From assembly GCF_004138295.1 (NCBI RefSeq), contig NZ_SCFM01000062.1, positions 1 to 35,589 of the forward strand: 35,589 bases of DNA. The letters run 5' to 3'. Shown piece by piece: positions 1,344-35,194 of the stretch. Each line of letters opens with the position of its first letter. The stretch's first letter is position 1. The position numbers and the translations under genes were made by a program. This stretch comes from Ectobacillus funiculus. GTDB lineage: Bacteria > Bacillota > Bacilli > Bacillales > Bacillaceae_G. A model generated the notes under the pieces. It did not search any database, was not told where the DNA came from, and saw only the letters and a program-made list of their open reading frames with translations.

Positions 1344-1477
1344 CACTGTAAGAACGTATAAATTCCCAGCTAGAAGTTCATTCAGCGCGGTGGGGAATTT
1401 CAGGAATAAAGTATAAGTACAACTACGCTTCTGTCTTCGCCCAATGGCAGGGCTTGCCAATCGGCGAGTTTTCTTTA
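1344..1477 (+). repeat. Structured intergenic repeat, copy R1
   Basis: Full-length ~134-bp copy of the dispersed family. It starts CACTGTAAGAA and ends GGCGAGTTTTCTTTA. Arms AAATTCCC and GGGGAATTT pair, where most other copies have AAATTTCC with GGAAATTT. The 3' part folds as TCGCC...GGCGA with an inner GGCA...TGCC, followed by TTTTC, like a terminator. It sits between the NPD-family gene and the M20 hydrolase gene. Confidence 0.85.
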
Positions 1478-1600
1478 TCAAATGTATGCAAGATATTCTT
1501 ACAAATAAGCAGGATTCTTCCATCCCCTGTGTAATAGTTTGTTATGACATAAAGCAGTATTAGCTCATCTCATCTATAGATTGGGAAAGGAGTGTTCGTG

Positions 1601-2833
1601 ATGCAACGGCAAAAGATATTAATTAACGGTGAGAGGTTAAGAAATCAATTGGAGCTGTTTGCAAATTATGGACGTACAGAAAATAACGGGGTAACGAGAT
1701 TATCGTTGTCACAGGAAGATCGTGCCGTCAGGGATTACTTTTGCGATTGTTGTAAGGAACTAGGCATGTCTATTGCAGTAGATGATATGGGTTGTATTTA
1801 TGCAACGTTAGAGGGGATAGAGCAGCAGCCTCCAATTCTGCTCGGATCGCATTTGGATACGGTGAAAAAGGGCGGCCGCTTTGATGGAGTATTAGGGGTT
1901 GCGGCTGGTTTAGAGGTTGTAAGAACGTTAGTTGAGAACAATATAAAGCCTCGTGTTCCGATTACGATTGTTAATTTTACGAACGAGGAAGGTGCTAGAT
2001 TCGAGCCTTCTATGATGGCATCGGGCGTGCTTTCAGGAAAATTTGAAAAATCGGTAATGCTGAAAAAAACGGATACTGCCGGGATTACGTTTGAGGAAGC
2101 CCTGCAAGCCACTGGGTATGCAGGCGAAGCGAAAAACCGCTTGAAAGAGGCTACAGCCTTTTTAGAACTACATATTGAGCAAGGGCCAATTTTGGAGACA
2201 GAAAATATTACAATTGGAGTTGTTGAATGTGTAGTCGGAATGGTGTGCTATGAAATTGAGGTGACCGGTGAGTCTAATCATGCAGGGACAACACCGATGG
2301 GGATGAGAAAGGATGCCCTATTTGCTACGAATAATCTGATTTCGGAAATCTGTCAACGATTAGGGGCGATCGATGATGAGTTAGTGTACACAATTGGCAG
2401 GGTGAACGTGTTCCCGAATATCCATACGGTTATTCCGAATAAAGTTGTATTTACCTTAGAGGCACGGCATAAAAATCCGGATATGATCAGCTCTGTTGAA
2501 GAAGTGATACAAGGGTTGCCGCAATCCATAGCGAAGGCGGATTGCGAAGTGAAGGCTGTCAAGCTATGGGATCGGGATACGGTTTGGTTTGATAAGGATA
2601 CTTGCAATGCGCTTGAGCAATCAGCAGAGTCTTTAGGATATTCTCATAAAAGAATGGTGAGCGGAGCAGGACATGATGCCCAATTTATTGCAAGCCTTGT
2701 GCCGACTGCGATGCTATTTGTTCCAAGCGTAAATGGAAAAAGCCATTGTGAGGAAGAATTGACAGCGTGGGAGGATTGTGAAAAGGGAGTTAACGTATTG
2801 CTGGATACAGTTTTAGCATTGTTAGCTAATTAG
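1601..2833 (+). CDS. M20 amidase, hydantoinase/carbamoylase family
   Basis: 410 aa Zn-dependent amidohydrolase of the N-carbamoyl-L-amino-acid hydrolase / allantoate amidohydrolase group (peptidase M20). Metal and catalytic residues are visible: GSHLDTV (H84, D86), GGRFDG (D95), TNEEGARF with E129-E130, HIEQG (H191), the lid-domain AGTTPMG segment, SGAGHDAQ (355-361), and the C-terminal SVNGKSHCEEE with H382. These hydrolyse N-carbamoyl or ureido bonds in hydantoin, purine or pyrimidine catabolism; which substrate cannot be read from sequence. ATG 1601 was chosen over an upstream in-frame GTG (1592) because AAAGGAG ends 8 nt before it. No purine or hydantoin genes lie nearby, so it may be a lone salvage enzyme. 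Confidence 0.87.
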   Translation: MQRQKILINGERLRNQLELFANYGRTENNGVTRLSLSQEDRAVRDYFCDCCKELGMSIAVDDMGCIYATLEGIEQQPPILLGSHLDTVKKGGRFDGVLGVAAGLEVVRTLVENNIKPRVPITIVNFTNEEGARFEPSMMASGVLSGKFEKSVMLKKTDTAGITFEEALQATGYAGEAKNRLKEATAFLELHIEQGPILETENITIGVVECVVGMVCYEIEVTGESNHAGTTPMGMRKDALFATNNLISEICQRLGAIDDELVYTIGRVNVFPNIHTVIPNKVVFTLEARHKNPDMISSVEEVIQGLPQSIAKADCEVKAVKLWDRDTVWFDKDTCNALEQSAESLGYSHKRMVSGAGHDAQFIASLVPTAMLFVPSVNGKSHCEEELTAWEDCEKGVNVLLDTVLALLAN

Positions 2834-2862
2834 GATGCTTAGAATCTAAAGGTGAAGCATAA

Positions 2863-2897
2863 AGGCAGCTGTGTATGTTGTAATTGGCTGCCTTTTT
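2863..2897 (+). terminator. Terminator of M20 gene
   Basis: AGGCAGC (2863-2869) pairs with GCTGCCT (2887-2893), followed by TTTT. An apparent upstream TTG start for the next gene falls inside this hairpin, which argues against that start. Confidence 0.75.
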
Positions 2898-2928
2898 CCT
2901 GTTAATAGAAGAAAAGGGGCAGTTACAT

Positions 2929-3357
2929 ATGGTAAGGATTAAAGAGTTACTTACGAAGCAGCAGTGGCTAGAGGCTTTTCCTGTCATGAAACAGTTACGC
3001 ACACACTTAGACGAAACAAGCTATGTAGAACTCATTCAGCAAGCGGTTGAGAATGGGGGATATAAGCTATTTGCCCTATTTGAGAAGGATACAATTGTGG
3101 CAACGGTAGGTTTTATGCCGATGATTACGTTATATAACGGTAAATTCATTTGGGTGTGTGATTTAGTGACAGATGACGAGCATCGCAGCAAAGGCTATGG
3201 TCAACAGCTATTGTCTTATGTGGAAAACTGGTCAAAAGATAATGGTTATAATATTGTGTCGCTGTCATCAGGTTTGCAGAGATTGGATGCACATCGATTT
3301 TATGAGGAAAGGCTAGAATATGATAAGGTGAGCTATGTATTTTTAAAGAAGATTTAG
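2929..3357 (+). CDS. GNAT-family N-acetyltransferase
   Basis: 142 aa acetyl-CoA-dependent acetyltransferase. The GNAT core is visible: beta strand FIWVCDLVTDDEHRSKGYGQ (about 82-101), containing the acetyl-CoA pyrophosphate loop in the form R-x-K-G-Y-G, then LLSYVENWSKDNG and the C-terminal LDAHRFYEERLEYDKVSYVF strand typical of this superfamily. Start ATG 2929 has AAGGGG 9 nt upstream; the longer frame from 2884 begins inside a terminator. The acceptor substrate is unknown. It is preceded by a terminator and separated from the following esterase by about 80 bp, so the two may or may not share a transcript. Confidence 0.8.
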   Translation: MVRIKELLTKQQWLEAFPVMKQLRTHLDETSYVELIQQAVENGGYKLFALFEKDTIVATVGFMPMITLYNGKFIWVCDLVTDDEHRSKGYGQQLLSYVENWSKDNGYNIVSLSSGLQRLDAHRFYEERLEYDKVSYVFLKKI

Positions 3358-3436
3358 GTGCAAATCAAAAAACTAGAAATGAGAAAAGGTTCAGCGGATA
3401 ATCGAACCTAATGATCGTTCTGAAGGGATGGTTACA

Positions 3437-4210
3437 GTGGCACTAATTCAATGTCAGTTTTATTCAGATGTTTTAAATCTAAGTACATCTATGACGGTTA
3501 TATTGCCACAGCAAACGACAACACAAATCGGAATGCAGAATACACTAACAGGTGATAAGTATCAGACATTATATCTGCTGCATGGTTTGAGTGATGATGA
3601 TACGATTTGGACGAGGAGGACATCGATTGAAAGATACGTTGCACCTCTTGGATTAGCCGTTGTCATGCCGCAAGTACATCATAGCTTTTATACAGATATG
3701 AAATACGGTAATAAGTATTGGACTTTCTTAACGGAAGAGCTCCCATCCATTTCTAGATCATTTTTTCCTTTATCCGATGCAAGAGAGGATAATTTTGTTG
3801 CCGGGCTTTCAATGGGGGGGTATGGAGCATTTAAATGGGCGTTGAACCGTCCTGAGCAAATCAGTGCTGCTGCTAGTTTATCAGGAGCATTAGATATCGT
3901 AAGCCTCATCAATCAAGCTGATCAAGAGGGACTTTTTCATCTGATTTACGGAAACGAAGATGTAGCTGGAACAGAACATGATTTATTTTCAATGATAGAA
4001 AAAACTAATAGAAATGAACAAAAGCCCATTTTGTATCAATGCTGTGGTACGGAGGACTTTTTATATGAGGATAATATTCGTTTTAAGGATCTATGTGAAA
4101 AAACGGAATATAACTTAACGACAGATTTTGGTTCTGGTGATCATGAGTGGGATTATTGGGATAAAACTATACAGGATGTATTAGCGTGGCTTCCGTTAAA
4201 GGGGAAATAA
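3437..4210 (+). CDS. Alpha/beta-hydrolase esterase (EstA / esterase D type)
   Basis: 257 aa serine esterase of the tributyrin esterase / S-formylglutathione hydrolase-like group. The catalytic triad can be placed: nucleophile S125 in GLSMGG, D207 in [11 protein letters not shown] and H236 in [10 protein letters not shown]. The oxyanion region is [13 protein letters not shown] (46-58). The N-terminus [13 protein letters not shown]...TSMTVILPQ is typical of cytoplasmic EstA-like enzymes, and no signal peptide is present. GTG 3437 was preferred over ATG 3428 because AAGGG directly abuts the ATG but is 9 nt from the GTG. It should hydrolyse short-chain acyl esters. Confidence 0.82.
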
Positions 4211-4327
4211 ACAGTAGCTAAAGACACAGTGAACAGTAGTCATATGTAACAGGAGCGTTGTAAATTAGGGCATTAAAGTGCTTGAGGATCCTGAAAGGCT
4301 AGCGTCGTTTGTGCACGGCTTTTTTCA

Positions 4328-4414
4328 CACTTTAAGAAACTTTAGGAATAAAGTATAAGGGCAACTAAGCCTCTATCTTCGCCTAACGGCTCGCTAATCG
4401 GCGAGTTTTCTTTA
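4328..4414 (+). repeat. Structured intergenic repeat, copy R2a (internal deletion)
   Basis: It begins CACTTTAAGAAA 2 bp after a T6 tract, then jumps from GAAA to the family's AACTTTAGGAATAAAGTATAAG, losing about 45 bp of the first hairpin. The 3' part (TTCGCCTAACGGCTCGCTAATCGGCGAGTT, read across 4379-4408) is intact. The outer pair ACTTTA/TAAAGT is kept even though the inner hairpin is missing. Confidence 0.75.
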
Positions 4415-4415
4415 T

Positions 4416-4512
4416 TTTAAGAAAGTATAAGTTTCTAGCTAGAAGTGAATTCGACGTATCAGGAAACTTTAGGAACAAAGTGTAGATGCAAATACGCCTT
4501 GCCTTCGTCAAT
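4416..4512 (+). repeat. Structured intergenic repeat, copy R2b (3' end degraded)
   Basis: It starts TTTAAGAAAGTATAAG directly after the 3' end of R2a. It retains the TTTCTAGCTAGAAG region, TTCGACGTA, AGGAACAAAGTGTAGATGCAA and ACGCCTTGCCTTCG, then diverges. R2a and R2b form a head-to-tail tandem, the only one in the window. Confidence 0.7.
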
Positions 4513-4692
4513 GTGAAAGGGAGAGTACTTCTTCTTTTTGCAAGGATGATGTACAATAGAACATGTTCTCGTGCTTCACATGATAACAAACAGATATGAT
4601 TGGGTATCCATAACGATAAAAATCATGTATTGTTAGATAAGATTATTCTTTATATATTTTTTGCATATATGATGCTTGAAAGGACTTTTTCT

Positions 4693-6267
4693 ATGACAAA
4701 TGAACAAAAACATGAACTGAATTCACGCAGAACCTTTGCGATTATTTCGCATCCGGATGCCGGGAAAACGACACTGACGGAGAAGTTGCTATTGCTTGGA
4801 GGAACAATTCGTTCAGCAGGGACGGTAAAAGCAAAAAAATCTGGAAAGTACGCAACCTCAGATTGGATGGAAATTGAGAAGCAAAGGGGAATTTCTGTTA
4901 CATCGAGTGTAATGCAATTTTTCTATCGCGATCATCACGTGAATATCGTTGATACACCGGGACACCAAGACTTTAGTGAAGATACGTATCGTACGTTAAC
5001 AGCGGTAGACAGCGCCGTAATGGTAATCGATGGAACGAAAGGGATCGAAGCACAGACGCTCAAGTTATTTAAAGTGTGCCGTATGCGAGGAATTCCGATT
5101 TTAACCTTTATTAATAAGCTCGACCGCGAAGGAAGAGAGCCGCTTGAGCTGCTGCAGGAAATTGAAGAGGTGCTTGGCATTGAATCGTATCCGGCGACAT
5201 GGCCGATTGGCATGGGGAAACGATTCCAAGGAACATACGACCGATTTGAAAAGAAAATTGAAGTATATCGTGGTAATGAGGAATCGGTATTTATTGATTT
5301 TGATGGTGAAAATGTTACAGAAGAGTTAACAAAATATATCGATCCTGCCGTAATCCCGTCCTTGATTGACGAACTGATGCTAATTGATGAAGCAGGGAAT
5401 GATTTCTCAATTGAAAAAGTGAAAAATGGGACATTAACGCCTGTATTTTTTGGAAGTGCCATCGCCAATTTTGGTGTGCAGTCGTTCTTTAACTCCTTTT
5501 TAAATTTAACATCTCCGCCGCAGTCGAGAATGTCTTCAAATGGTGAGATTCCCATTGATTATCCGCATTTTTCTGGATTTGTTTTCAAAATACAGGCGAA
5601 TATGAACCCGGCTCACCGCGACCGGATTGCATTCGTACGTGTCTGCTCTGGAAAATTCGAGCGCGGCATGACAGTTACCCTTCCTCGTACAGGCAGAAAA
5701 ATTAAATTAGGACAATCTCAGCAGTTTTTAGCCTCTGATCGGGAAACGGTAGAGGAAGCATACCCGGGTGATATTATCGGATTATATGATTCCGGTACGT
5801 ATCAAATTGGAGATACAATCATCGGAGGAGGAGCGATGTTTCAGTTTGAAGCATTGCCGAAGTTCCCACCAGAGCTGTTCCGGAAAGTAAGGGCAAAAAA
5901 TGCAATGAAGCATAAGCATTTTGATAAAGGGATGACACAGCTTGTCCAGGAGGGTGCAGTACAGCTTTACCGTACACCGTTCTTCGGAGACTACATTTTA
6001 GGAGCGGTCGGCGAACTGCAGTTTCAGGTATTCGAATACCGCATGAAGGCAGAGTATGGTGTGGATCTTGAATTCACATCGATGCAGCATAACAGTGCAA
6101 GGTGGATTTCAAAGGATGATGTGAAACAGATTAAAACGGATTCCCGTGCCATGCTTGTAGAGGATTTGGATGGCAATCCTGTTCTATTGTTTGAAAATGA
6201 TTTTGTGCTTCGGACGTTTACTGACAAATATCCTGATGTGAAGCTAAGCACAATTTTTGAAGGATAA
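4693..6267 (+). CDS. prfC: Peptide chain release factor 3 (RF3)
   Basis: 524 aa translational GTPase that recycles RF1/RF2 after termination. G1 motif HPDAGKTT (20-27), switch [10 protein letters not shown] and the NKLD G4 motif are present, with the RF3-specific [10 protein letters not shown] and KQRGISV segments and the domain II/III sequence ending KLSTIFEG. Length matches the family (about 525-530). ATG 4693 follows AAAGGA and gives the usual RF3 N-terminus [19 protein letters not shown]; the 31 extra upstream codons are not RF3-like. B. subtilis lacks RF3, so this marks a lineage that keeps it. It is monocistronic, between tandem repeats and a strong terminator. Confidence 0.95.
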
Positions 6268-6298
6268 TATAAGGAAATGCTTTAGAAAGTAATTGGGC

Positions 6299-6347
6299 AA
6301 GGCTTGTAGACAAAGGGGAGTTTCCCCTTATCTACAAGCCTTTTTTT
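6299..6347 (+). terminator. prfC terminator
   Basis: AAGGCTTGTAGA...GGGG pairs with CCCC...CTACAAGCCTT, a stem of about 18 bp, followed by seven T. Repeat copy R3 begins at the very next base. Confidence 0.9.
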
Positions 6348-6446
6348 ACTGTAGAAAAGTATAAATTTCAAGCTAGAAGTCGTTCGAGGTAGTCGGAAAT
6401 GATAAGTGTAATGTAACTACAACTACGCCTCTGTCCTCGCCCAAGA
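6348..6446 (+). repeat. Structured intergenic repeat, copy R3 (3' hairpin lost)
   Basis: ACTGTAGAAAAGTATAAAT abuts the last T of the prfC terminator. AAATTTC pairs with GAAAT further on, and CTACGCCTCTGTCCTCGCCC is recognisable, but the closing GGCGAG arm is missing. It lies between the convergent ends of prfC and the minus-strand oxidoreductase gene. Confidence 0.75.
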
Positions 6447-6476
6447 GCTCAGTCTTTTTGCCCTAAAATACAAGGG

Positions 6477-7502: not shown

Positions 7503-7773
7503 ATATTCAGCTTCTTTCTTTTTGGAATGGTAGTGAGTTAAGATGGAACGTTCTATATAACTGTTCCCAAAAATTATTGTATCAATTGTTTGCATCGGCT
7601 CAAAATATAATGCTTTGATCTTGACTGAGTGTATTAGAGGGAGAACACAAGCAGGTAGAATCTTGTTTTAGAAGAATACGAGTACAAGAATTATGTCCCT
7701 CGTGTCGAAATGCAGGTAAATCGGATGGTAAAATATAAAGATACTATATGTTTTGAGGGGAGAAGTGAAGGGG

Positions 7774-13665: not shown

Positions 13666-13911
13666 ATGGAAAGCTTTGTGACTGCTCATAATTTGGGGTT
13701 TTTATCTGAATTGCTTGGACTCGAGAATAAGGGTGTGTACGATTATCAAATTTCAGCGCAGCATCAATATCAGCCCGTTGTGGAGAAGTTGAATCATGTA
13801 AAAAACAAAGCTGCAGGACCAGCCTGCAGCTTTGTTTTTTACATATGTTCCACTTTAAGAAAATATAAATTTCTAGCTGGATGGCCGATTCGACGTAGCG
13901 AGAAATTTTAG
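13666..13911 (+). pseudogene. Small ORF running through a terminator, probably broken
   Basis: ATG 13666 has a good GGAGG site and encodes MESFVTAHNLGFLSELLGLE and on to about VVEKLNHV. The frame then reads through a 17-bp perfect terminator stem and into repeat R4. Genes do not normally end that way, and an alternative stop (TGA or TAA) lies in other frames just before the hairpin, so a small indel has probably removed the original stop. The encoded ~45 residues are not recognised. It could be the tail of the DUF3219 operon. Confidence 0.35.
13801..13840 (+). terminator. Strong bidirectional terminator
   Basis: AAAAACAAAGCTGCAGG pairs perfectly with CCTGCAGCTTTGTTTTT over ACCAG (17 bp). It is the only terminator after the sulfite-oxidase-like/LLM/DUF3219 operon. 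Confidence 0.88.
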
Positions 13912-13978
13912 GAATAAAGTAAAGGACAACTATGCCTCTGCCTTCGCCCAAAAGCAGGCTCTCCAGTCGGCGAGTTTT
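13851..13978 (+). repeat. Structured intergenic repeat, copy R4
   Basis: It begins CACTTTAAGAAAATATAA 10 bp after a T6 tract. Arms AAATTTCT and AGAAATTT pair, a covariant of AAATTTCC/GGAAATTT in other copies. ACTTTA also pairs with TAAAGT. The 3' hairpin TCGCC...GGCGAGTTTT is intact. Confidence 0.82.
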
Positions 13979-14055
13979 AAACTATACGATGTGGCAGGAA
14001 ATGACAGTATAGGGAATACGAGAAATGAGGACATCCCCAGTCTTGGTGGCCATAC

Positions 14056-16666: not shown

Positions 16667-17236
16667 ATGTCCCCAAGAAAATCTGTACAACAAGAGCTAA
16701 CACGTGAAATGATTATGGATGCAGCAAGAGACCTGTTCGTCCAAAACGGATATGGACATGTATCGATGAGACAAATTGCCAAGGAACTCGGCTACAGCCA
16801 TGGTGCCATTTACTATCATTTTACAAACAAAGCAGAATTATTTTATGCCATGGTACAAGAGCATTTTCACATGCTGGATCATATATTAGCTAACATTATG
16901 GAGCAGGATTTGGAACAGCATGAAAAGCTGAGGCAGGTGCTGCTTGGCTTTATAGAGTTTGGTCTCACACATCAAAACCACTATGAGATTATGTTCCTTA
17001 TTAAGGATGAGGAGGTTAGAAACTTTATTAATGAAGGGCCAAATAAAAGCTATGAAGCATTTGCGAAAAGCGCATATATGTTATGTGACAAAAAGGCATC
17101 ACTTCAAGACATCTGGTCTGTGTTTCTATCCTTGCACGGCTTTGTTACTCACTATAGCCGTCATGTAGTTGGTTATGACGAGGTGAAGGATTTAGCTCGT
17201 TCGCATGTGAATTTTTTACTGAGATCGCTCATATAA
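16667..17236 (+). CDS. TetR/AcrR family transcriptional regulator
   Basis: 189 aa. The N-terminal helix-turn-helix is clear: MIMDAARDLFVQNGYGHVSM, then RQIAKELGYSHGAIYYHFTN, with the family tail KAELFYAMVQEHF. The C-terminal ligand domain is variable and not assignable to a known ligand. AAGGAGG precedes ATG 16667; a GTG at 16646 lies within the operator and is not the start. Matching 17-bp palindromes lie over its own promoter and before the downstream SDR-like gene, so it probably represses both itself and that gene. Confidence 0.88.
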   Translation: MSPRKSVQQELTREMIMDAARDLFVQNGYGHVSMRQIAKELGYSHGAIYYHFTNKAELFYAMVQEHFHMLDHILANIMEQDLEQHEKLRQVLLGFIEFGLTHQNHYEIMFLIKDEEVRNFINEGPNKSYEAFAKSAYMLCDKKASLQDIWSVFLSLHGFVTHYSRHVVGYDEVKDLARSHVNFLLRSLI

Positions 17237-24397: not shown

Positions 24398-24640
24398 GCA
24401 GTGAACGAAATGCCTTGTAAATCACAAAGTTGTGATTCAAGTTCTTTTGTTCGCATATATAATCCTACCATGTTTGTGATACCATTTTGTTTTGAACCGT
24501 ACGATTAAAACGGGATGCCTACACTGTTGATGGATGCCATGCCTGCTTGTCAGGATCGCAGGAAATCAATCTGCGGAAACCCACCTGCGAGAGCGGGTTC
24601 CAAAGCAAAGTGGAAAACGGCATATGCGGGAATATGTTTT
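24398..24640 (+). ncRNA. ssrS: Probable 6S RNA
   Basis: About 230 nt with no credible reading frame. ATGCC (24410-24414) pairs with GGCAT (24619-24623) to close the molecule. The central part contains TTTTGAACCGTACG and ACGGGATGCCTAC, then stem-loops such as ATGCCTGC...GCAGG and CACCTGCGAGAGCGGGTTC. A long irregular hairpin with an open centre is the 6S RNA shape, which sequesters sigma-A RNA polymerase. A short hairpin CATAT...ATATG plus TTTTT follows. The call rests on resemblance to Bacillus 6S RNAs and on its place beside the SRP RNA gene. RNase P RNA and tmRNA were considered and do not fit. Ends are approximate. Confidence 0.5.
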
Positions 24641-24673
24641 TAAACGACATAGCGAATGAAGTAAAATATACAT

Positions 24674-24941
24674 ACCGTGATAGGCGGGGAGGCAGCGGTG
24701 CCCTGTAGCTCGCAATCCGCTCTAGCGAGGCTGAATCCCCTTCAGCGGTATGATGGATGTAAGGCTTGCCTTATATAAGCGGTGATGACCTTCGGAGTCC
24801 TCGCAACAGAAATCCATGAACTTGGTCAGGCCGGGAACGGAGCAGCCATAAGTGGAAGCTTCTGTGTGTCGCAGGGTAGCTACGAACGAGCTGGCTGTAT
24901 GAGTACCGCTTATGTCGTCATATCAATGAAGGGTTCACGGT
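24674..24941 (+). ncRNA. scr: Signal recognition particle RNA (scRNA, long Bacillus type)
   Basis: About 268 nt, close to the 271 nt of B. subtilis scRNA. The ends pair: ACCGTGA (24674-24680) with TCACGGT (24935-24941). The 5' Alu domain shows GGCGGGGAGGCAGCGGTGCC and CCGCTCTAGCGAGG. The Ffh-binding S domain shows CTTGGTCAGGCCGGGAACGG then AGCAGCC, with a GGAA tetraloop on a CCG/CGG stem, and the later CGCAGGGTAGC completes the internal loop. It targets nascent membrane and secreted proteins with Ffh. tRNA genes follow immediately. Confidence 0.93.
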
Positions 24942-24964
24942 GTTTATTTATTTTTATCTTGTAT

Positions 24965-25049
24965 GGAGGGGTAGCGAAGTGGCTAAACGCGGCGGACTGT
25001 AAATCCGCTCCCTCAGGGTTCGGCGGTTCGAATCCGTCCCCCTCCACCA
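24965..25049 (+). tRNA. tRNA-Tyr (GTA)
   Basis: Acceptor GGAGGGG pairs with CCCCTCC and CCA is encoded. It has a long variable arm as expected for Tyr. Anticodon GTA is at 24999-25001 within GACTGTAAATC. Confidence 0.95.
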
Positions 25050-25109
25050 TAGTATATTATGTGCTGATGAAGTGCATGAAGCATGTAGGCAATTGTGAAA
25101 TTTGCATTT

Positions 25110-25193
25110 GCGGGTGTGGCGGAATTGGCAGACGCACCAGACTTAGGATCTGGCGCCTTTGGCGTGGGGGTTCGAGTCCCTTCACCCGCACCA
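25110..25193 (+). tRNA. tRNA-Leu (TAG)
   Basis: Acceptor GCGGGTG pairs with CACCCGC and CCA is encoded. Anticodon TAG is at 25144-25146 between CCAGA and TCTGG. It has the long variable arm typical of Leu. Confidence 0.95.
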
Positions 25194-25225
25194 TTTATAA
25201 TGGAAACCTGAAACGTTATGTTTAT

Positions 25226-25300
25226 GGCGGTTGTGGCGAAGTGGTTAACGCATCAGATTGTGGCTCCGACACTCGTGGGTTCGATTCCCATCAATCGCCC
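25226..25300 (+). tRNA. tRNA-His (GTG)
   Basis: G-1 is encoded at 25226 and faces C73, the His identity pair. Acceptor GCGGTTG pairs with CAATCGC and CCA is not encoded. Anticodon GTG lies in GATTGTGGCTC. The anticodon stem TCAGA/TCCGA contains one A.C mismatch where most Bacillus copies have G-C. Confidence 0.88.
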
Positions 25301-25330
25301 TTGCTTATGATAACATTACTTGCATATAAT

Positions 25331-25401
<71 letters not shown>

Positions 25402-25407
25402 TTTTTG

Positions 25408-25537
25408 CACTGTAGGAAAGTATAAATTTCCAGCCAGAAGCCAATTTGACGCAGTCGGAAATTTTAAGAATACAGTATAAGTACAACTACGTCTATGTCC
25501 TTGCTTAACGGCTCACCAATCGGCGAGTTTTCTTTAT
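25408..25537 (+). repeat. Structured intergenic repeat, copy R5
   Basis: It starts CACTGTAGGAAAGTATAA one base after the T6 tract that follows tRNA-Cys. AAATTTCC pairs with GGAAATTT, and ACTGTA pairs with TACAGT further on. The 3' hairpin TTGCT...GGCGAGTTTTC uses wobble pairs. Confidence 0.85.
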
Positions 25538-28079: not shown

Positions 28080-28090
28080 ATTATATAAGC

Positions 28091-28233: not shown

Positions 28234-28240
28234 TTCTTGC

Positions 28241-29434: not shown

Positions 29435-29458
29435 TTTCACATCTCCATTCTTTTCCAT

Positions 29459-29639
29459 ATCTAAAAGACAATAAATCTGTTGTTCATTATAACAAAGGAA
29501 TTGAGAAGATTCCTTTTAAATGCTTAACTTTATGAAATATATAATTTCTGCCTTTGTATAAAAGAGGCTTCCTTAAGATATACATTTCTATTCAAATCAT
29601 ACCTTGTGTGCCAGCTGCCATTCTATAAAGGTATTACAC
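29459..29639. other. Intergenic region upstream of the MFS gene
   Basis: About 180 bp, AT-rich. It should carry the minus-strand promoter of the MFS gene, but no clear box pair or repeat was found. Confidence 0.4.
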
Positions 29640-29672
29640 AAAAAATAGCCATACAGAACTTGTCTATACGGC
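29640..29672 (-). terminator. TatD-family gene terminator
   Basis: On the minus strand GCCGTATAGA pairs with TCTGTATGGC (two wobbles) over CAAGT, followed by TATTTTTTG. Confidence 0.75.
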
Positions 29673-29681
29673 ATGCATTTT

Positions 29682-30488
29682 CTAAATTGTTCGTTCATTC
29701 TCCTCGTTTCCGGCAGCGTTAAGTGCAGAAGGCTCAAACAAGGCTAGCATGTTTTGTTTACATTGCTTTTGAACAGCCATAATATCTTTTCCTTTTATTT
29801 CCGCTATTTTTTTTATAACATCCTCGATAAAAATGGGAGAAGTAGCTTTGTTTTGAAAGGGTCCGGAAAATGGCCATGGACCATCTGTTTCTGTTAATAA
29901 CTGCTTTAGCGGAACGTGGCGAATGAGATCCTGATCACGCTCCCGATAACAGGCCTCTGGTGTAACGGAAATATAATACCCGCTGTCTGTAATTTGTTTC
30001 ACAACAGACGGAGCTGCTTTGAGCCAATGGAAATGCGCCTTTAGAATATGGTGCCGAGTTAATAAGTCATAGGCAATTGGCGTATGAGAATGGACGGCAT
30101 GCAGGATAATCGGAAGGCTTTCCCTTTTGGAGATGCACATCATTTCATCAAGAAATGCAATATAATGTTCCAGAGAATCATGCTGCTGTTCGTGAAGTGT
30201 ATAATATGGCAGCCCTACCTCTCCAATCGCTGAAATAAGATGGCGTTCCCGGCGCAGTAAATGCTCCCATTCAGTGATATCGCGGGAAGAGGGGAGCGGC
30301 TGCTCTGGATGAAACCCAATTGCTGCAAAAATAAAGTCAGGATATCGCTGCTTAAGTGAAAGGGTTTCATAGCTGGATCGTAAGTCGGTCGATACGGCCG
30401 CTACTCCTTCAATGCCAGCTTGCTGCCACTGTTCTATCTGGCGGTCGATGTCTTTGTATTGGTTTAGATGGATATGGGCATCAAACAT
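29682..30488 (-). CDS. TatD family metal-dependent hydrolase
   Basis: 268 aa TIM-barrel amidohydrolase/DNase of the TatD superfamily. Metal ligands are recognisable: HIH at residues 5-7 (MFDAHIHLNQ), the bridging glutamate in AIGEVGLPYY, ILHAVHSHTP, HFHWLKAAP and the aspartate in TETDGPW. GEVGLPYY replaces the usual GExGLDYY, a one-residue departure at the conserved LD. GGAGG lies 7 nt before ATG 30488; a longer frame begins 11 codons upstream without support. TatD proteins have 3'-5' exonuclease or deoxyribonuclease activity; the role here is unspecific. Confidence 0.83.
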   Translation of the reverse strand: MFDAHIHLNQYKDIDRQIEQWQQAGIEGVAAVSTDLRSSYETLSLKQRYPDFIFAAIGFHPEQPLPSSRDITEWEHLLRRERHLISAIGEVGLPYYTLHEQQHDSLEHYIAFLDEMMCISKRESLPIILHAVHSHTPIAYDLLTRHHILKAHFHWLKAAPSVVKQITDSGYYISVTPEACYRERDQDLIRHVPLKQLLTETDGPWPFSGPFQNKATSPIFIEDVIKKIAEIKGKDIMAVQKQCKQNMLALFEPSALNAAGNEENERTI

Positions 30489-30526
30489 AGGTGAGCCTCC
30501 AGTATTTTTTAATGTATACATATAAT

Positions 30527-30571
30527 AACAAAGAGCGAAGTCTTCGTCATTTGAGGACTTTGCTCTTTGTT
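30527..30571. terminator. Terminator-like hairpin between divergent genes
   Basis: AACAAAGAGC...AGTC pairs with GACT...GCTCTTTGTT. It is oddly placed, since both flanking genes point away. Repeat R6 follows within 3 bp, repeating the hairpin-then-repeat arrangement seen elsewhere. Confidence 0.55.
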
Positions 30572-30573
30572 TA

Positions 30574-30690
30574 CCCTGTAAGCAAGTATAAACTTCCAGC
30601 TAGAAGCGAATTCGACGTAGCAGAAAATTTCAGGACTAAAGTGTAAGTGCAACTACGTTTTTATCCTCGCCAATCGGCGAGCTGTCTTTA
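30574..30690 (+). repeat. Structured intergenic repeat, copy R6 (compact 3' hairpin)
   Basis: It starts CCTGTAAGCAAGTATAAAC. The 3' hairpin is reduced to CTCGCC-AATC-GGCGAG, a perfect 6-bp stem lacking the inner GGCA/TGCC arm, and ends CTGTCTTTA. It is the only copy in a divergent intergenic region. Confidence 0.78.
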
Positions 30691-30808
30691 TCGTCTATAT
30701 ATATGTGCACAGTACGGCGGATTTCTAAGCAGTTATTTTGAATGTTCTCCCTTGCTCCAACATACAGATACATTAATTATGGTTTTACGTGTGAACGGAG
30801 GGAGAATA

Positions 30809-31420
30809 ATGGAGAAGGATTTTTTGAATATTTGGATGGAATTTGATGAAAAGCGCCGTAAGCGAGAGGAAGAACCAGCGATTCGGCAGGGAGAGGAGCT
30901 GGAGGAGCTCGTTCAGATGCGTGCATCTTATATTAATGACTTAATTCATGCTTTATCCAAAAATTATGAGGTTCTGCTAGCTATTACAAATGTTCTTGAG
31001 GATGCAAGGCGTTTCTGTACGGGCGAAAGTGAGATGTATCCGTTTATGGCCTACATGCAGGATTTAGTGGAACAAACCCCGAATTTTACATCGACCTTCT
31101 ATCCGCTTGTCAATCAGGCAAGGTCGCTGCTTATCCAAAAGGCGGATGTGACGCTTCTGCGCTGCGTCAAGCAGACAATGGATTTAGAAAAGGCGGCAAT
31201 TGAACTTGGTGATAGGGCTCTCCATTATATTGGTTTGTTTGAACAGCTTGTGCTTGAAGGAGATGATACAGTGATACTGGCATTTGTCGGGGATACATGT
31301 CGCTTGTATTTTGAGCTGAAGGATATGAACGAGACGCTGCTTCATCGCGCGAAACGGTATGAAGAATTAAATCGTATTTACATGACGAATAAGGTTATTG
31401 ATTATAATCGCCATCAGTAA
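30809..31420 (+). CDS. Hypothetical cytoplasmic protein, helical
   Basis: 203 aa, starting MEKDFLNIWMEFDEKRRKRE after a GGAGGGAG site 6-8 nt away. The protein is charged and appears almost wholly alpha-helical (LEELVQMRASYINDLIHALS, TLLRCVKQTMDLEKAAIELG), with no signal peptide, membrane span or catalytic motif. The longer frame upstream runs through repeat R6 and is rejected. Family not recognised; such helical proteins are often adaptors or regulators, but nothing here proves that. Ribosome-binding site and codon structure make the gene itself convincing. Confidence 0.7.
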   Translation: MEKDFLNIWMEFDEKRRKREEEPAIRQGEELEELVQMRASYINDLIHALSKNYEVLLAITNVLEDARRFCTGESEMYPFMAYMQDLVEQTPNFTSTFYPLVNQARSLLIQKADVTLLRCVKQTMDLEKAAIELGDRALHYIGLFEQLVLEGDDTVILAFVGDTCRLYFELKDMNETLLHRAKRYEELNRIYMTNKVIDYNRHQ

Positions 31421-31435
31421 GGGAATATAGTCTCA

Positions 31436-31463
31436 TTGTTTCTTGCGCTTTAGTATGTATAAT
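31436..31463 (+). promoter_or_regulatory. Promoter with long leader before csp
   Basis: TTGTTT (31436-31441), a 16-bp spacer and TATAAT (31458-31463). Transcription from about 31470 would give a ~230-nt leader to the cold-shock gene, or a separate small RNA. The leader contains the C-rich stretch CCTCCTCCTC (31532-31541), complementary to Shine-Dalgarno sequences. Confidence 0.5.
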
Positions 31464-31700
31464 GTTGCAGGAAACAGCTTGAGCATATACGAAAGAAACG
31501 GACAGGAAATGTACAGAGAACATAGAAGCCTCCTCCTCATTATTTCTTTTTAGTGAAGGGATTATGTATGAGGTGGAAAAGACTTAGAATTAATAAAAAA
31601 TATAGCCGCATAGGTTTAAAAAATTGTCTGTAGGTACATAATAAACATGCAAGGTTACATTGCAATTTTATGTATTTGGTACATGCTGGGAGGCAACAAA

Positions 31701-31901
31701 ATGGAACATGGTAAAGTAAAATGGTTTAACAGTGAAAAAGGCTTTGGATTTATCGAGCGTGAAGGCGGAGAGGATGTATTTGTTCATTTCTCTGCTATTC
31801 AAGGCGAAGGCTACAAGTCATTAGACGAAGGCCAAGAGGTTACTTTTGAAATTGAAAATGGCCAACGTGGTCCGCAAGCGACAAACGTACGTAAAGCATA
31901 A
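31701..31901 (+). CDS. Cold-shock protein (CspB/C/D type)
   Basis: 66 aa single OB-fold RNA chaperone that melts mRNA structure in the cold. RNP1 is KGFGFIE (13-19) and RNP2 is VFVHF (26-30), and [19 protein letters not shown] is near-identical to Bacillus Csp proteins. Start ATG 31701 follows GGGAGG; a longer frame from 31647 is part of the leader. Csp mRNAs usually have long structured 5' leaders, which fits the upstream promoter at 31436. It cannot be assigned to cspB, C or D from this sequence alone. Confidence 0.95.
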
Positions 31902-31915
31902 TGAATGAAGCCATA

Positions 31916-31947
31916 AACAGATCCGTATTAACCGGGTCTGTTTTTTA
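31916..31947 (+). terminator. csp terminator
   Basis: AACAGATCCG pairs with CGGGTCTGTT (one wobble) and is followed by a T-run. Repeat R7 starts 5 bp later. Confidence 0.85.
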
Positions 31948-31951
31948 TTTA

Positions 31952-32077
31952 CACTTTAAGGGCATAAATTTCTAGCCAGGAGACCATTCGACGTAGTGAG
32001 AATTTTTAGGAGTAAAGTATCAGTGCAACTACGCCTCTGTCTTCGCCAACGGCTCGCCAATTGACGAGTTTTCTTTG
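31952..32077 (+). repeat. Structured intergenic repeat, copy R7
   Basis: It starts CACTTTAAGGGCATAAATTTC. ACTTTA pairs with TAAAGT inside the element, and AAATTTCT pairs with AGAATTTTT. The 3' hairpin ends TTGACGAGTTTTCTTTG, one base pair weaker than the consensus. Confidence 0.82.
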
Positions 32078-32091
32078 TAATGAATGTACAT

Positions 32092-32122
32092 AAAAACCCT
32101 GCTCAAAAACAGAGCAGGGTTT
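32092..32122 (-). terminator. Terminator facing left
   Basis: AAACCCTGCTC pairs with GAGCAGGGTTT, with TTTT following on the minus strand. It has no clear gene to serve except the small minus-strand frame at 32216-32386, and it supports transcription from that side. Confidence 0.7.
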
Positions 32123-32215
32123 AGCTATGCTAGAAAGCAAAATGGTTTATTTCTAGTATAGGTTAATTTTGGAGGGGGCATACCTGTTGTTTCAGCTGTC
32201 ACTATACTGTTTCGT

Positions 32216-32386
32216 TTAAAACTGCGAGATACAAATACAGATGAAAAGGTACGAGCAGGTTGTTTTTCCTTTCCCCAGTAAGAAAGAAGCGTTTTGTATT
32301 TTCATAGATATGTAGTTGCAGGTTCCTGAAATAATTCCCAACAGTTCTCTGACAATTCTTGATTTTTCCCTGTTTTCGTGACTCAT
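32216..32386 (-). CDS. Small minus-strand ORF of doubtful status
   Basis: 56 aa beginning MSHENREKSRIVRELLGIIS, with a strong GGAGGGTGG site 7 nt before the ATG and a terminator downstream on the same strand. The C-terminus (TTCSYLFICICISQF) looks unlike a normal end. All three minus-strand frames are open across much of this interval: the +1 frame continues to 32125 (ARTFSSVFVSRSFKRN; TGMPPPKLTYTRNKPF) and the other ends ...NLLVPFHLYLYLAVLNETV. A single indel at the A5 run (32263-32267) would join the first two frames. Either a true small gene or a frameshifted one; family not recognised. Confidence 0.35.
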   Translation of the reverse strand: MSHENREKSRIVRELLGIISGTCNYISMKIQNASFLLGKGKTTCSYLFICICISQF

Positions 32387-32419
32387 ATCACATCCACCCT
32401 CCAATCTCTTTGCTATAGT

Positions 32420-32505
32420 AACGTTAGCAATGCCTGACTATAGGTACGACTGAGAGGAGTTACCCAGCTTTTTGCCGGATTGCTTAGGAGCAGTGTAGGG
32501 AATCT
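32420..32505 (+). promoter_or_regulatory. Diverged TPP-riboswitch-like leader of thiH
   Basis: Three conserved TPP-aptamer segments occur in the right order: CTGAGA (32449-32454), ACCC (32462-32465) and GTAGGGAA (32496-32503), 27 bp before the GTG of thiH. A CCT...AGG hairpin precedes CTGAGA as P3 would. The GGGTGC of P2 is not recognisable, and the P4/P5 strand (normally GATCTGG...CCAGCG) reads GCCGGATTGC...GCAGT. It is either a degenerate aptamer or a divergent functional one; no terminator lies between it and thiH. Confidence 0.4.
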
Positions 32506-32529
32506 TTTGTATGTTTAGGGGGAGAAACA

Positions 32530-33633
32530 GTGAGCTTTTATGAAAAATACAGTGAAGTCAAACATACTTCTTTTGAAACTCTTTTTTCAACCATTAGTCA
32601 TGAGGATGTACAGCATGCCATACATAAACCAACGTTAAATGAGTTTGATTTTTTAACATTATTGTCTCCTGCCGCAGAGGCTTTTGTAGAAGAGATGTCA
32701 CAGAAGGCGCAGCAAGTAACAAGAAAGTATTTTGGACATGTCATGCAGTTATTTGCTCCTTTGTATATTTCTGATTACTGCGTAAACCGCTGTGAATATT
32801 GTGGCTTTAGCGTGAATCATGATTTTCCGCGTAGAAGGCTGACATTATTAGAAATAGAGGAAGAGGGCAAGGCAATTGCTAAGATGGGTATTCAAAATCT
32901 GCTTCTCGTAACGGGAGAATCACGTCAGCATGTCTCTATCCCGTATTTAAAGGAATGTGTCAGTGTCCTGAAGAAATATTTTTCCACTATTGCAATTGAG
33001 GTTCAGCCTTTAAAGACGGAAGAGTATCAAGATCTCGTAGAATTCGGGGTAGACGGATTGACGGTTCATCAGGAGACCTACAATGAAGAAATCTATAAGC
33101 AGCTTCATGTCAAAGGACCAAAACGCAATTATGCCTACCGCTTGGATACACCGGAGAGAGGATGCTGTGCGGGAATGAGAACGGTTTATATTGGTGCGCT
33201 TTTAGGACTGGATGATTGGCGGAAGGAGGCATTTTTTACGGGCCTTCATGCTCAGTACCTACAGCAAATGTATTCTAAAACTGAAATTGGGATTGCGTTT
33301 CCGCGAATGCGCCCGCATCTTGGGGAGTTCCAGCCTGCAGTGGATGTCACGGATCAGAATTTAGTGCAAATTATACTTGCGACACGCTTATTCTTGCCAA
33401 AAGCAGGGATGACGCTTTCGACAAGGGAGAGACCTGCTTTTCGGGAGAAATTGATTCATTTCGGTATTACAAAAATGTCTGCGGCTTCCTCAACAGCTGT
33501 TGGCGGTTATGCTAACAAGCAGGAGAGTCATAGTCAATTTGAAATTTCTGATGAGCGAAGTGTGGATGAAGTGGTCACGATGCTGAAGAAGTATGGGTAT
33601 GTACCAATCTGTAGAGAAGCAACGGCTTTATAA
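32530..33633 (+). CDS. thiH: 2-iminoacetate synthase ThiH
   Basis: 367 aa radical-SAM tyrosine lyase that cleaves tyrosine to p-cresol and dehydroglycine for the thiazole ring of thiamine. The [4Fe-4S] cysteines are C84-x3-C88-x2-C91 in SDYCVNRCEYCGF. The family blocks YFGHVMQLFAPLYIS, LLVTGESRQH, VHQETYNEEIY and RMRPHLGEF confirm ThiH rather than BioB. The start is GTG 32530 with AGGGGGAG upstream. Most Bacillus species use the oxygen-dependent glycine oxidase ThiO instead, so ThiH suggests thiazole synthesis under low oxygen. It stands alone without thiG, thiS or thiF. Confidence 0.93.
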   Translation: MSFYEKYSEVKHTSFETLFSTISHEDVQHAIHKPTLNEFDFLTLLSPAAEAFVEEMSQKAQQVTRKYFGHVMQLFAPLYISDYCVNRCEYCGFSVNHDFPRRRLTLLEIEEEGKAIAKMGIQNLLLVTGESRQHVSIPYLKECVSVLKKYFSTIAIEVQPLKTEEYQDLVEFGVDGLTVHQETYNEEIYKQLHVKGPKRNYAYRLDTPERGCCAGMRTVYIGALLGLDDWRKEAFFTGLHAQYLQQMYSKTEIGIAFPRMRPHLGEFQPAVDVTDQNLVQIILATRLFLPKAGMTLSTRERPAFREKLIHFGITKMSAASSTAVGGYANKQESHSQFEISDERSVDEVVTMLKKYGYVPICREATAL

Positions 33634-33647
33634 AAGCAAAGAAGAAT

Positions 33648-33687
33648 AAAATATCCCGCGCTCGTATGAAAGAGCGCGGGATATTTT
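33648..33687. terminator. thiH terminator, 16-bp stem
   Basis: AAAATATCCCGCGCTC pairs perfectly with GAGCGCGGGATATTTT over GTATGAA. It is bidirectional in form. Confidence 0.88.
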
Positions 33688-33927
33688 GTGCAATTCTTCT
33701 GCAAAGCGGTAATACAAAAGCAAGAATGTTGCCAATACAAAAATAAAGTTCAGGAAAACAAAAATCATTTGATCCGTTTTGTTTTCTGCATCTTTACAGG
33801 AAACCCCTTCATTGTAGAAAGTGTATTTAGGAATATAGGAAATACACAAGGTGTAGCTTGAATGAAGTGATAAATCCAGATACGATATAGATAGATTGTA
33901 CATATAGTAGGGGAGTTGGTGAATGGT

Positions 33928-34971
33928 ATGGCAAAACAAAAGGGAAATTCGTCAAAATTCATCGGTACGCTGCTAGGAATTGGCGCGTTGGCACTAGGAA
34001 AGTTGAAATATGTTCTTGTTTTACTAAAAATATTTAAATTTTCTACACTGTTTAGTATGTTCCTTAGCATTGGGGCTTACGCAATTGTTTATGGGTGGAA
34101 GTTTGCGGTAGCGCTTGTTGCATTGCTTGCTATCCATGAAGGCGGGCATGGCGTGGCCGCAAGAATGAAAGGGATTCCGACAAGTCCAGCTTTATTTATT
34201 CCGTTTATGGGGGCTGTTGTTGGGCTCAAGGAGCAGCCGAAGGACGCGAAAACGGAGAGCTTTATCGGATATATGGGTCCGTTGTTTGGTTTATTTTCGG
34301 TTTTAATTGCCGGCGCGCTGTATCTACTGACGGAAAATCCATTTTGGGCACTTGTAATCACAATAGGCGGTTTGATTAATTTGTTTAATCTTATGCCTAT
34401 TTCACCACTTGATGGCGGGCGCATTCTTGCAGTTGTAAGTCCGCGTGTTTGGCTCATTGGATTAGTAGGTCTCATTTTCGCAGCGGTTTCTTTTGGAGGT
34501 GTGTTAGTTTGGATTATTATTCTGTTCGGCATCTTTACAATCTGGGGTCGCTTTAAGCAGGAACGCCGTATGAAAGAGCTAAGCACAAGAATCCACATAT
34601 ATGATACCTGGCGAGCGAAATTGGAGATGCAGGGCGGGTATGCAGCACTTGTGCATCGATTGAATGAATTGGAACATAGCTCTTCCTTATCAAAGACAGA
34701 AACTTGGGAGCGTGAGGTGCTGTCTCATATGCAATATTACACCGAGCTGCACACAACAGAAGAAGGCTGGGCACGAACGCTGGATGAGCTGGAGGCAGGA
34801 AAAGAAATTCAGCGCTGGCGGGATGAGATGGAACCGATTGTCCGTTACTATGAAGCATCGCCTGCAACAAAGTGGAAGGTGGTAATCGCTTATGTCTTGC
34901 TTGCGGCAGCACTTGGCGGCATGGCGGAGTGGGGACGGATTTTAATGGAAGCACATCAAATGGATCTATAA
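33928..34971 (+). CDS. Site-2 protease family (M50) membrane metalloprotease
   Basis: 347 aa. The zinc motif HEGGH is at 70-74 in AIHEGGHGVAARM. The third ligand lies in NLMPISPLDGGRIL, the S2P signature. About six hydrophobic segments surround these motifs, and a ~100-residue charged cytoplasmic tail with helical character precedes a last membrane helix (WKVVIAYVLLAAALGGMAEW). Such proteases cut transmembrane or membrane-proximal substrates. In-frame starts TTG 33916, GTG 33919 and ATG 33928 share one AGGGGAG site; ATG is preferred for its MAKQKG start, though its spacing is 12. The substrate is unknown, and no sigma or anti-sigma gene is adjacent. Confidence 0.85.
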   Translation: MAKQKGNSSKFIGTLLGIGALALGKLKYVLVLLKIFKFSTLFSMFLSIGAYAIVYGWKFAVALVALLAIHEGGHGVAARMKGIPTSPALFIPFMGAVVGLKEQPKDAKTESFIGYMGPLFGLFSVLIAGALYLLTENPFWALVITIGGLINLFNLMPISPLDGGRILAVVSPRVWLIGLVGLIFAAVSFGGVLVWIIILFGIFTIWGRFKQERRMKELSTRIHIYDTWRAKLEMQGGYAALVHRLNELEHSSSLSKTETWEREVLSHMQYYTELHTTEEGWARTLDELEAGKEIQRWRDEMEPIVRYYEASPATKWKVVIAYVLLAAALGGMAEWGRILMEAHQMDL

Positions 34972-34999
34972 ACAGGAACTATACATGTTCTAGATGAAG

Positions 35000-35057
35000 A
35001 GCACCTCTTTGCATTAGCAGCAGAATTTTGCTGCGAAAAAGCTGGGGTGTTTTTTCG
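35000..35057 (+). terminator. Branched terminator of the M50 gene
   Basis: An inner hairpin GCAGCA...TGCTGC lies within an outer pairing GCACC/GGTGT, followed by TTTTTTC. Repeat R8 starts 5 bp later. Confidence 0.6.
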
Positions 35058-35060
35058 TTG

Positions 35061-35194
35061 CACTGTAGGAAGGTATAAATTTCCGGATGGAAGTCCATTC
35101 GACGTAGTCGGAAATTTTAGAAATACAGTATAGATAGAACTACGCCTCTGTCTTCGCCCAAAGGCAGGGCTTGCTAATCGACGAGTTTTCTTTA
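35061..35194 (+). repeat. Structured intergenic repeat, copy R8
   Basis: Full-length copy starting CACTGTAGGAAGGTATAAAT. ACTGTA pairs with TACAGT, AAATTTCC with GGAAATTT, and the 3' hairpin TCGCC...GACGAG has an inner GGCA...TTGC. A second partial start (TAAGAAAGTATAAC, 35200-35213) follows. Confidence 0.85.

Follow-up and report, generated by a model that had tools for sequence, protein, structure and literature searches.

A short intergenic repeat of Ectobacillus funiculus often lies behind terminator-type hairpins and has the features of a non-autonomous mobile element

The window, i.e. the whole stretch of 35,589 nt of E. funiculus DNA analysed here, carries many copies of one short intergenic repeat, all pointing in the same direction. 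What kind of element is it, and what sets its orientation? The nine copies listed in a preliminary description of the sequence were confirmed at their positions, each on the forward strand. The common ends ascribed to them were found in the intact copies, which are about 134 nt long, but other copies are decayed or internally deleted. R1 (1344..1477) is full-length and lies behind a terminator hairpin at 1302-1333 and TTTTACTTTA. R2 (4328..4414; 87 nt) has lost its 5' hairpin by an internal deletion and follows a hairpin at 4304-4319 and TTTTTTCA; R3 (4415..~4519), with a decayed 3' part, abuts the right end of R2 in a head-to-tail pair. R4 (6347..~6449), whose right end is decayed or replaced, lies behind a long hairpin, read by eye, and a T-run, both after prfC (RF3), and R5 (13851..13984), with an altered right end, has a strong hairpin upstream. 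R6 (25408..25536) follows a tRNA-Cys gene (25331-25401), with the T-arm as the hairpin and TCTTTTTTG as the T-run. R7 (30574..30690) was located behind a hairpin at ~30530-30570 and TTTA, with a TatD-like gene on the reverse strand to its left, R8 (31952..32077) behind a terminator hairpin at 31915-31943, and the full-length R9 (35061..35194) behind a weak hairpin with a T-run. The upstream hairpins of R1, R2, R5, R7 and R8 were found by a stem or terminator scan. The earlier remark that the copies point right regardless of how the flanking genes run is true as worded, but a forward-strand hairpin with a T-run precedes the copies, and the uniform orientation in the window goes with these co-oriented hairpins and with the direction of replication.

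An intact copy reads 5'-CAC...TTTTCTTTA-3' with CTTTA at the right end. In R1, the left-end hairpin (1360..1400, forward strand; stem AAATTCC / GGAATTT) was determined by folding and by pair counts in 56 copies, the near-invariant core, whose family consensus is AAGTATAAGTGCAACTACGCCTCTGTCTTCGCC, lies at 1409..1441 (forward strand), and the right end (1453..1477, forward strand) consists of the hairpin CTTGCCAATCGGCGAG followed by TTTTCTTTA. This right end is terminator-like and is itself a target for further copies. Both hairpins covary: 96.1% of cells were paired in the left one and 86.7% in the right one, and two-sided changes were seen at 5 of 7 and 3 of 6 pairs, respectively; RNAalifold by itself recovered the left hairpin only. 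The left hairpin stands ~17 nt from the 5' end, compared with 9 nt (TTTTCTTTA) between the right hairpin and the 3' end. The strongest conservation was detected in the internal core of ~33 nt, which end recognition by a Y1 enzyme does not account for. Short variants without the 5' hairpin still recur at several terminators. A pseudoknot that would join the 5' loop to the core (columns 32-57 and 88-107) was 76-89% pairable, with two-sided changes in just 4 and 0 cells, and is not claimed. No transposase gene is attached, and the three inverted pairs detected do not join copy ends. Rfam searches of the window and six element loci gave no element match at the gathering score and one chance match (E 0.53).

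The nine copies are not the sole ones. The profile search of an 824-kb sample of the host genome, the window included, resulted in 123 copies at 108 loci, and chance was excluded because the reversed 824-kb sequence gave 0 matches. Extrapolation from this sample resulted in approximately 810 copies per genome, corresponding to about 2% of it. A covariance model built from the family extended it to many relatives with a broad host range: the element was detected in 67 of 249 genomes at the order level and in 22 of 200 at the class level, the own genome being counted in both. The hosts named include other genera, over which the distribution is patchy. The sister genus carries the element in 12 of 13 genomes, and no element match was obtained in three genomes of the same genus. 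Phages gave no element match and viral contigs no exact match to the core. None of 107 loci falls within a called gene, the genes having been called with a codon-scored caller in place of a plain one, both of which miss genes. Recent moves are not proven, since the best partner at another place was at most 97.7% identical among the 77 copies compared. A literature search in which subscription papers were covered thinly yielded no description recognised as this element.

Occupied and empty orthologous sites were compared at four polymorphic sites of the sister genus with otherwise aligned flanks, which defined the element ends and revealed no target duplication at three of the four. At site 1, the element is absent from all 8 relatives according to a profile check, and the junction is continuous in 6 of the 8; the position of the right junction is uncertain by 3-4 nt. 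Sites 2, 3 and 4 have clean insertion points without target duplication, and their empty junctions are without the right-hand TTTA. The absence of target duplication at these three sites, together with the absence of terminal inverted repeats, led us to reject a DDE-type MITE.

A terminator-like upstream flank was determined for 47 of the 89 loci with an intact 5' end compared with 33 of 582 control positions; the terminator criterion was failed by the other 42 flanks. The upstream T count was 7.46 of 13 positions (control 4.26). A stem closed by a G-C pair was present upstream of 59 of 89 loci (control 455/1431), most commonly at a distance of 7-11 nt (33 of 59; control 87/455), and the relatives had a G-C-closed stem at 34 of 51 loci and the 7-11 nt distance at 25 of 34. 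This distance peak emerged only once the G-C closing pair was required: a looser scan, with stems allowed to enter the A/T tract, resulted in 59 of 89 loci (control 82/296) and a broad distribution of distances with no clear peak. The base preceding CAC is A in 55 of the 89 loci, G in 13, T in 13 and C in 8, and the left tetranucleotide is not strict (TTTA 37, TTTG 8, TTTT 6, CTTA 6, TTCA 5; n = 89). At the right end, A comes after CTTT in 74 of 78 copies, and T stands next in 34 of 78. An IS608-style guide, in which TAAAG by the right hairpin pairs with CTTTA, was dropped: many foreign copies agree with it, but the copies of the own genome, inspected by eye, do not. As far as the compared sequences tell, insertion favours the 3' side of terminator-type hairpins, after a T-run and a purine (consensus TTTA), and with a single orientation with respect to the hairpin.

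The random orientation that would have spoken against a directional repeat was not seen elsewhere in the sample: both strands are used, but the leading-strand sense prevails (89 of 107 loci), leading and lagging strands having been inferred from GC skew. Among gene ends facing gaps of at least 100 bp, the leading to lagging ratio was 68:4 for occupied and 222:78 for unoccupied ends (p = 5.6e-5), and 59:3 versus 220:76 (p = 1.5e-4) when the element length was subtracted from the gap. In convergent gaps, 16 of 20 copies are leading-sense. Gene direction alone discriminates little, as the upstream neighbour is co-oriented at 78 of 107 loci and the downstream one at 72 of 107 (upstream only 21, downstream only 15). 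Going by the skew, the over-used gene ends are those with the lagging-strand template as sense strand.

The use of the element's right end as a target results in head-to-tail arrays. Of the 8 two-copy loci, 6 carry two near-full copies joined end to end, with an identity of just 0.77-0.85 compared with 0.763 for random pairs. Higher values (0.886, 0.917, 0.932) were obtained for some adjacent pairs outside the sample. The arrays consist of copies that diverged separately, and some were subsequently amplified into identical units.

The search for a mobiliser gave just two Y1 matches in the own genome, broken or partial. Some kind of Y1 match was detected in 15 of 20 relatives and none in the element-bearing relatives G009, G010, G012, G014 and G015. 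With the element profiles, 70 loci were scanned: 44 Y1/TnpB loci of the own genome and 15 relatives, and 26 reverse transcriptase (RT) loci. Five of the 70 gave an element match, all among the 46 Y1, TnpB and own-genome RT loci. Three of them (L051, L212, L223) were examined in detail as candidate transposon ends and judged to be separate copies, and the matches at L183 and L217 were weak. No transposon with matching ends was found among the 70 loci, and no split copy encloses a gene.

The earlier interpretation as a non-autonomous element is upheld by the occupied and empty sites, the hundreds of copies and the patchy distribution. We consider it somewhat probable that the ~134-nt element is moved in trans, as hairpinned single-stranded DNA, by an HUH (Y1)-type transposase, and that it is a PATE-like miniature element. 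At the replication fork, its ends and its target would be read as hairpins in single-stranded DNA; donor and target alike would be cut 3' of hairpin-T-tract-TTTR by a trans-acting 'peel-and-paste' transposase of this type. Landing behind a terminator and bringing one along would make the element almost harmless and would account for its very high copy number. Tentatively, and with rather less confidence, the element may represent an undescribed class of Bacilli miniature elements, whose terminator would be target signal, right-end recognition site and cargo at once, and whose ~33-nt core would be read by a dedicated, not yet recognised enzyme. The signal of hairpin, ~9 nt and TTTR would then be a cleavage site in host terminators as well as in the element, so that the host genome would supply the left end; if this is true, the element could serve to find its enzyme.

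Site-specific recombination of an excised circular form at a short TTTA(T), as suggested for bcr elements, would be consistent with the left TTTA at 37 of 89 loci, with CTTTA at the right end of nearly all copies and with the head-to-tail arrays. It is unlikely, as 52 of the 89 left flanks are not TTTA and the right-hand TTTA was not seen in the empty junctions of sites 2-4; moreover, such recombination predicts neither a hairpin at a preferred distance nor the replication-strand bias.

The target choice matches that described for group IIC introns, as far as the account in PMC3240598 goes, and raises the possibility that the element is transcribed to its own terminator and that a group IIC intron-like RT, acting in trans, then reverse-transcribes it into sites behind terminator hairpins. 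The insertion point and the 3' end of the element both coincide with the expected end of a terminated transcript, and RT matches were obtained in 16 of the 23 genomes searched. The two in the own genome (561 and 605 aa) are, however, by their size presumably not IIC. Furthermore, Rfam gave no group II intron match in the window and the six element loci, the element-bearing relatives G009, G012, G013 and G019 gave no RT match, and none of the 24 RT loci of relatives carries the element. A 5' truncation bias is also absent, as 6 of 123 profile matches only start late and 19 of 123 only stop early. The RT was rejected as a visible partner, showing no consistent co-occurrence with the element, and the copying route is regarded as improbable. 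A repeat or functional RNA that is old and no longer mobile, retained for a second terminator or for its RNA structure and spread by duplication and recombination only, would fit the identity limit of 97.7% between places and the conservation of both hairpins and the core, but is very improbable given the site polymorphism between species with aligned flanks and clean insertion points, the separately diverged copies at the ends of older ones and the lack of matches in the three same-genus genomes.

Terminators stand behind very many genes, and an element that reads a hairpin, not a long sequence, therefore has many nearly neutral landing sites. The extrapolated copy number in the present host indicates how far such spread can go. 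The near-invariant core and the covariance model provide a search handle for the mobilising enzyme. The element may also serve to mark the direction of replication forks and to insert DNA behind terminators in a natural, orientation-specific manner. Among the double terminators and small-RNA candidates of Bacillaceae, some may prove to be mobile DNA.

The bcr1 element is a repeat of the B. cereus group, ~155 bp long and flanked by TTTAT, some copies of which interrupt genes. The present element was compared with the bcr repeats in the preliminary description. Size and high intergenic copy number do fit, and TTTA(T) at the ends fits in part; accounts of bcr1 are given in PMC6542083, PMC3446304 and PMC2267715. 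Identity is not supported: the hosts lie outside the B. cereus group, 0 of 107 loci are in called genes, and when 72,556 plasmid records were searched by blastn with the consensus and with the core, none of the B. cereus group matched, although bcr1 is reported in PMC6542083 on plasmids of that group too. Judged from descriptions of bcr1 and from the plasmid records, the two may or may not be akin. REPINs resemble the element in being miniature, hairpin-forming, numerous and clustered in tandem, and in the account of PMC3116915 their presumed movement in trans is ascribed to a Y1 enzyme (RAYT). In contrast, the element is not an inverted pair of short palindromes, no Y1 gene with matching ends was seen among the loci scanned, and five of its hosts are without a Y1 match.

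Group IIC introns insert behind intrinsic terminators recognised as single-stranded stem-loops (PMC3240598, citing Robart 2007, in the part that deals with target sites). The element shares with them the insertion behind terminators, enriched though not universal, the fixed orientation and the recognised hairpin. It differs in its 134-nt length, in having no group II ribozyme match and no RT in cis, and in bringing its own terminator as right end. PATEs are palindrome-associated transposable elements of Haloquadratum derived from IS200/IS605, and their hairpin is described as having a wider spacing on the 5' than on the 3' side (PMC3119063, as far as its account extends). Like them, the element has no terminal inverted repeats, is too short to encode a transposase and makes no target duplication; it has near-terminal palindromes with the longer spacing at the 5' side, the left one missing in its short variants, and many copies and site differences where an intact tnpA is absent. 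The lagging-strand template bias (68:4 versus 222:78) is shared as well, IS605 being described as transposing as single-stranded DNA with such a bias (PMC7290912). Unlike the case of PATEs, no IS605-type element with similar ends was found among the loci scanned, the core is conserved, and the target includes a terminator hairpin with a T-run and is not a short oligonucleotide alone, whereas the target choice of IS200/IS605, as far as PMC7290912 describes it, involves no target hairpin. The element is thus best read as PATE-like in anatomy and group IIC intron-like in target choice.

The preliminary description had claimed nine copies of a repeat in the window, R1 to R9, all pointing rightward between 1344 and 35194; their number, positions and direction were confirmed by sequence search. 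Full-length copies were about 134 nt long, starting with CAC and ending with TTTTCTTTA. R2 had lost its 5' hairpin through an internal deletion, R3 started at the right end of R2, and the right ends of R3, R4 and R5 were decayed or altered. An open frame of 257 aa with no Pfam match (30647-31420) begins within R7; its true start probably lies downstream, or the frame is spurious.

The anatomy of the element was determined from 56 copies: the 180 full-length matches were reduced to non-redundant representatives, of which all 44 foreign ones and 12 of the 49 from the own genome were used. Three parts were conspicuous: a left hairpin with 96.1% of cells paired and 65 cells changed on both sides, lying about 17 nt from the 5' end, the near-invariant core AAGTATAAGTGCAACTACGCCTCTGTCTTCGCC, and the right hairpin CTCGCC-AATC-GGCGAG, 9 nt from the 3' end (86.7%, 17 cells). 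A weaker outer helix joined the 5' end to the stretch preceding the core (79.3%, 12 cells). The covariation score of the whole set, in which two unsupported pseudoknot helices are counted and relatedness is uncorrected, was reached by none of 500 shuffles. Folded as a single strand, the Gottfriedia-type consensus was stabler than its shuffles, with z values of -3.1 as RNA and -4.3 as DNA. The left hairpin was missing in short variants of Neobacillus, Sporolactobacillus and others. Such forms of about 75 nt (loci L079, L082, L113, L128 (Neobacillus) and L076) mostly started with a GGCTAAT-like sequence, not CAC, stood behind different terminators, and seem to be a subfamily spread by itself. 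At 314086-314335 of own-genome contig C82, about 127 bases separated the 5' and 3' parts of one copy; these may represent a further small element inside the copy.

The own genome (5.45 Mb, 146 contigs) contained 968 first-look candidates, the 40 scored giving at least 79 matches; many matches formed head-to-tail arrays with a period of 134 nt. In an 824-kb sample (the whole of C82, 180 kb of contig C103 and the window) the profile detected 123 copies at 108 loci, 82 of the copies being full-length; the reversed sequence yielded no match. The count extrapolates to about 810 copies per genome. None of the 107 sample loci with two neighbours lay within a gene called by a home-made caller, which assigned 72-85% of the sequence as coding.

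With blastn, the element was found in 20 of 59 relatives, the own genome not counted, and in none of three same-genus genomes; 12 of the 13 genomes of the sister genus, judged to be Gottfriedia, matched. The covariance model detected it in 67/249 genomes of the order, spanning 40/105 genera (own genome counted), and in 22/200 genomes of the class (own genome and three others of its order counted). An exact scan of named genomes with an 18-nt core returned at least 60 stretches. Among the matches listed, hosts with profile support (only weak for one stretch, locus L090) included Gottfriedia, Neobacillus, Cytobacillus, Caldibacillus, Gracilibacillus, Evansella, Fictibacillus, Pseudalkalibacillus, Halalkalibacterium, Sporolactobacillus, Scopulibacillus and Texcoconibacillus. 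The plasmid record CP053689.1 (Arthrobacter citreus NEB 577; locus L072) carries the element at 35877-36003, and contig C2 of G015, a genome placed in the window's own family, carries it at identical coordinates; the Arthrobacter label looks wrong.

Occupied and empty sites were compared in the sister genus. At site 1, occupied in G015, the element was absent from all eight relatives, and the profile matched none of the 16 loci checked. The junction was continuous in six; the flanks of G007 lay on two contigs and G011 had a different sequence. On the right, the position of the junction is uncertain by 3-4 nt, since relatives have TTATT or TTTATT at that point. Site 2, also occupied in G015, was empty in G010, G013 and G007, reading TTTTTTTG directly followed by TGAGTTTTT when empty and TTTTTTTG-CAC...CTTTA-TGTGTTTTT when occupied. 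Site 3 held the element in G018 and a decayed copy in G007, and was empty in G015, G010 and G013. Site 4, occupied in G015, had no copy in G008 and G010, where the near flank was aligned by eye; in G011 and G013 the element was missing too, and the sequence to the right differed. No target duplication was seen at sites 2-4. At 16758-16991 of locus L135 lies a different multi-copy stretch of about 140-225 bases, with matches in the sister-genus genomes G007, G010, G013 and G018.

The upstream flanks of loci with an intact 5' end were T-rich and hairpinned. Terminator-like sequence (T at least 7/13, MFE at most -6) was present at 47/89 loci compared with 33/582 control positions behind genes; 42/89 flanks failed this criterion. 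A first scan found a stem at 59/89 loci (control 82/296) at broadly spread distances. When a G-C-closed stem was required, it was present at 59/89 loci (control 455/1431) and lay 7-11 nt from the insertion point in 33/59 cases, compared with 87/455 in the control; in relatives, this distance was found in 34/51 and 25/34. Downstream flanks read antisense had a stem in 19/78 and no distance peak. The neighbouring gene was co-oriented upstream at 78/107 loci and downstream at 72/107, only upstream at 21 and only downstream at 15. Neighbouring genes were thus less informative than the hairpin, and the orientation of the element is taken as set by the hairpin, not by the gene. R7 is preceded by a strong hairpin although its left gene is on the opposite strand, and R6 sits behind the T-arm and T-run of tRNA-Cys. 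Genes for 6S RNA, the large SRP RNA and four tRNAs (Tyr, Leu, His, Cys) are adjacent at 24459-25401, directly before R6.

At six of the eight two-copy loci of the sample, two near-full copies were joined end to end; their profile matches lay 2 or 3 nt apart, the spacing predicted by CTTTA directly followed by CAC. Identity between these neighbours was 0.77-0.85, similar to that of random pairs (mean of 398 pairs, 0.763), and the most plausible reading is that the copies inserted separately, one at the right end of an older one. Adjacent pairs from other contigs, chosen for resemblance to the consensus, were 0.886, 0.917 and 0.932 identical, and the inner units of longer arrays were identical, which points to local amplification there.

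With strand inferred from GC skew, 89/107 loci had leading-strand sense. Among gene 3' ends facing gaps of at least 100 bp, those with a co-oriented element were 68 leading and 4 lagging, compared with 222 and 78 without (p = 5.6e-5); subtracting element length from the gap gave 59:3 versus 220:76 (p = 1.5e-4). Leading sense was found in 16/20 convergent (p = 0.012) and 9/14 divergent gaps. The strand with leading sense serves as template for the lagging strand, and the bias therefore agrees with single-stranded DNA as the target; a similar bias could also arise by selection.

No mobilising enzyme was found in the own genome, searched for Y1 transposase, TnpB and reverse transcriptase (RT), or in relatives searched for Y1 and RT. 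The own genome had two Y1 matches, broken or partial, 13 TnpB-type matches and two group II RTs. Y1 matched in 15/20 relatives, five element carriers among the 20 having no match, and RT in 16/23 genomes, with no match in four carriers; carriers G009 and G012 had neither. Few element matches lay at transposase loci (5/46 in one set, 0/24 in a second). Three of the five, read in detail, were separate copies, not transposon ends, and no split copy enclosing a gene was found.

The element is assigned to no known family, since the tested ends lacked IS605-type similarity and the ribozyme domains of group IIC introns were looked for and not found; bcr1 is a possible relative. We lean slightly towards single-strand transposition mobilised in trans, by an enzyme putatively of Y1/HUH type. 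The element resembles PATE and REPIN in its miniature-element anatomy, and group IIC introns in its choice of target.
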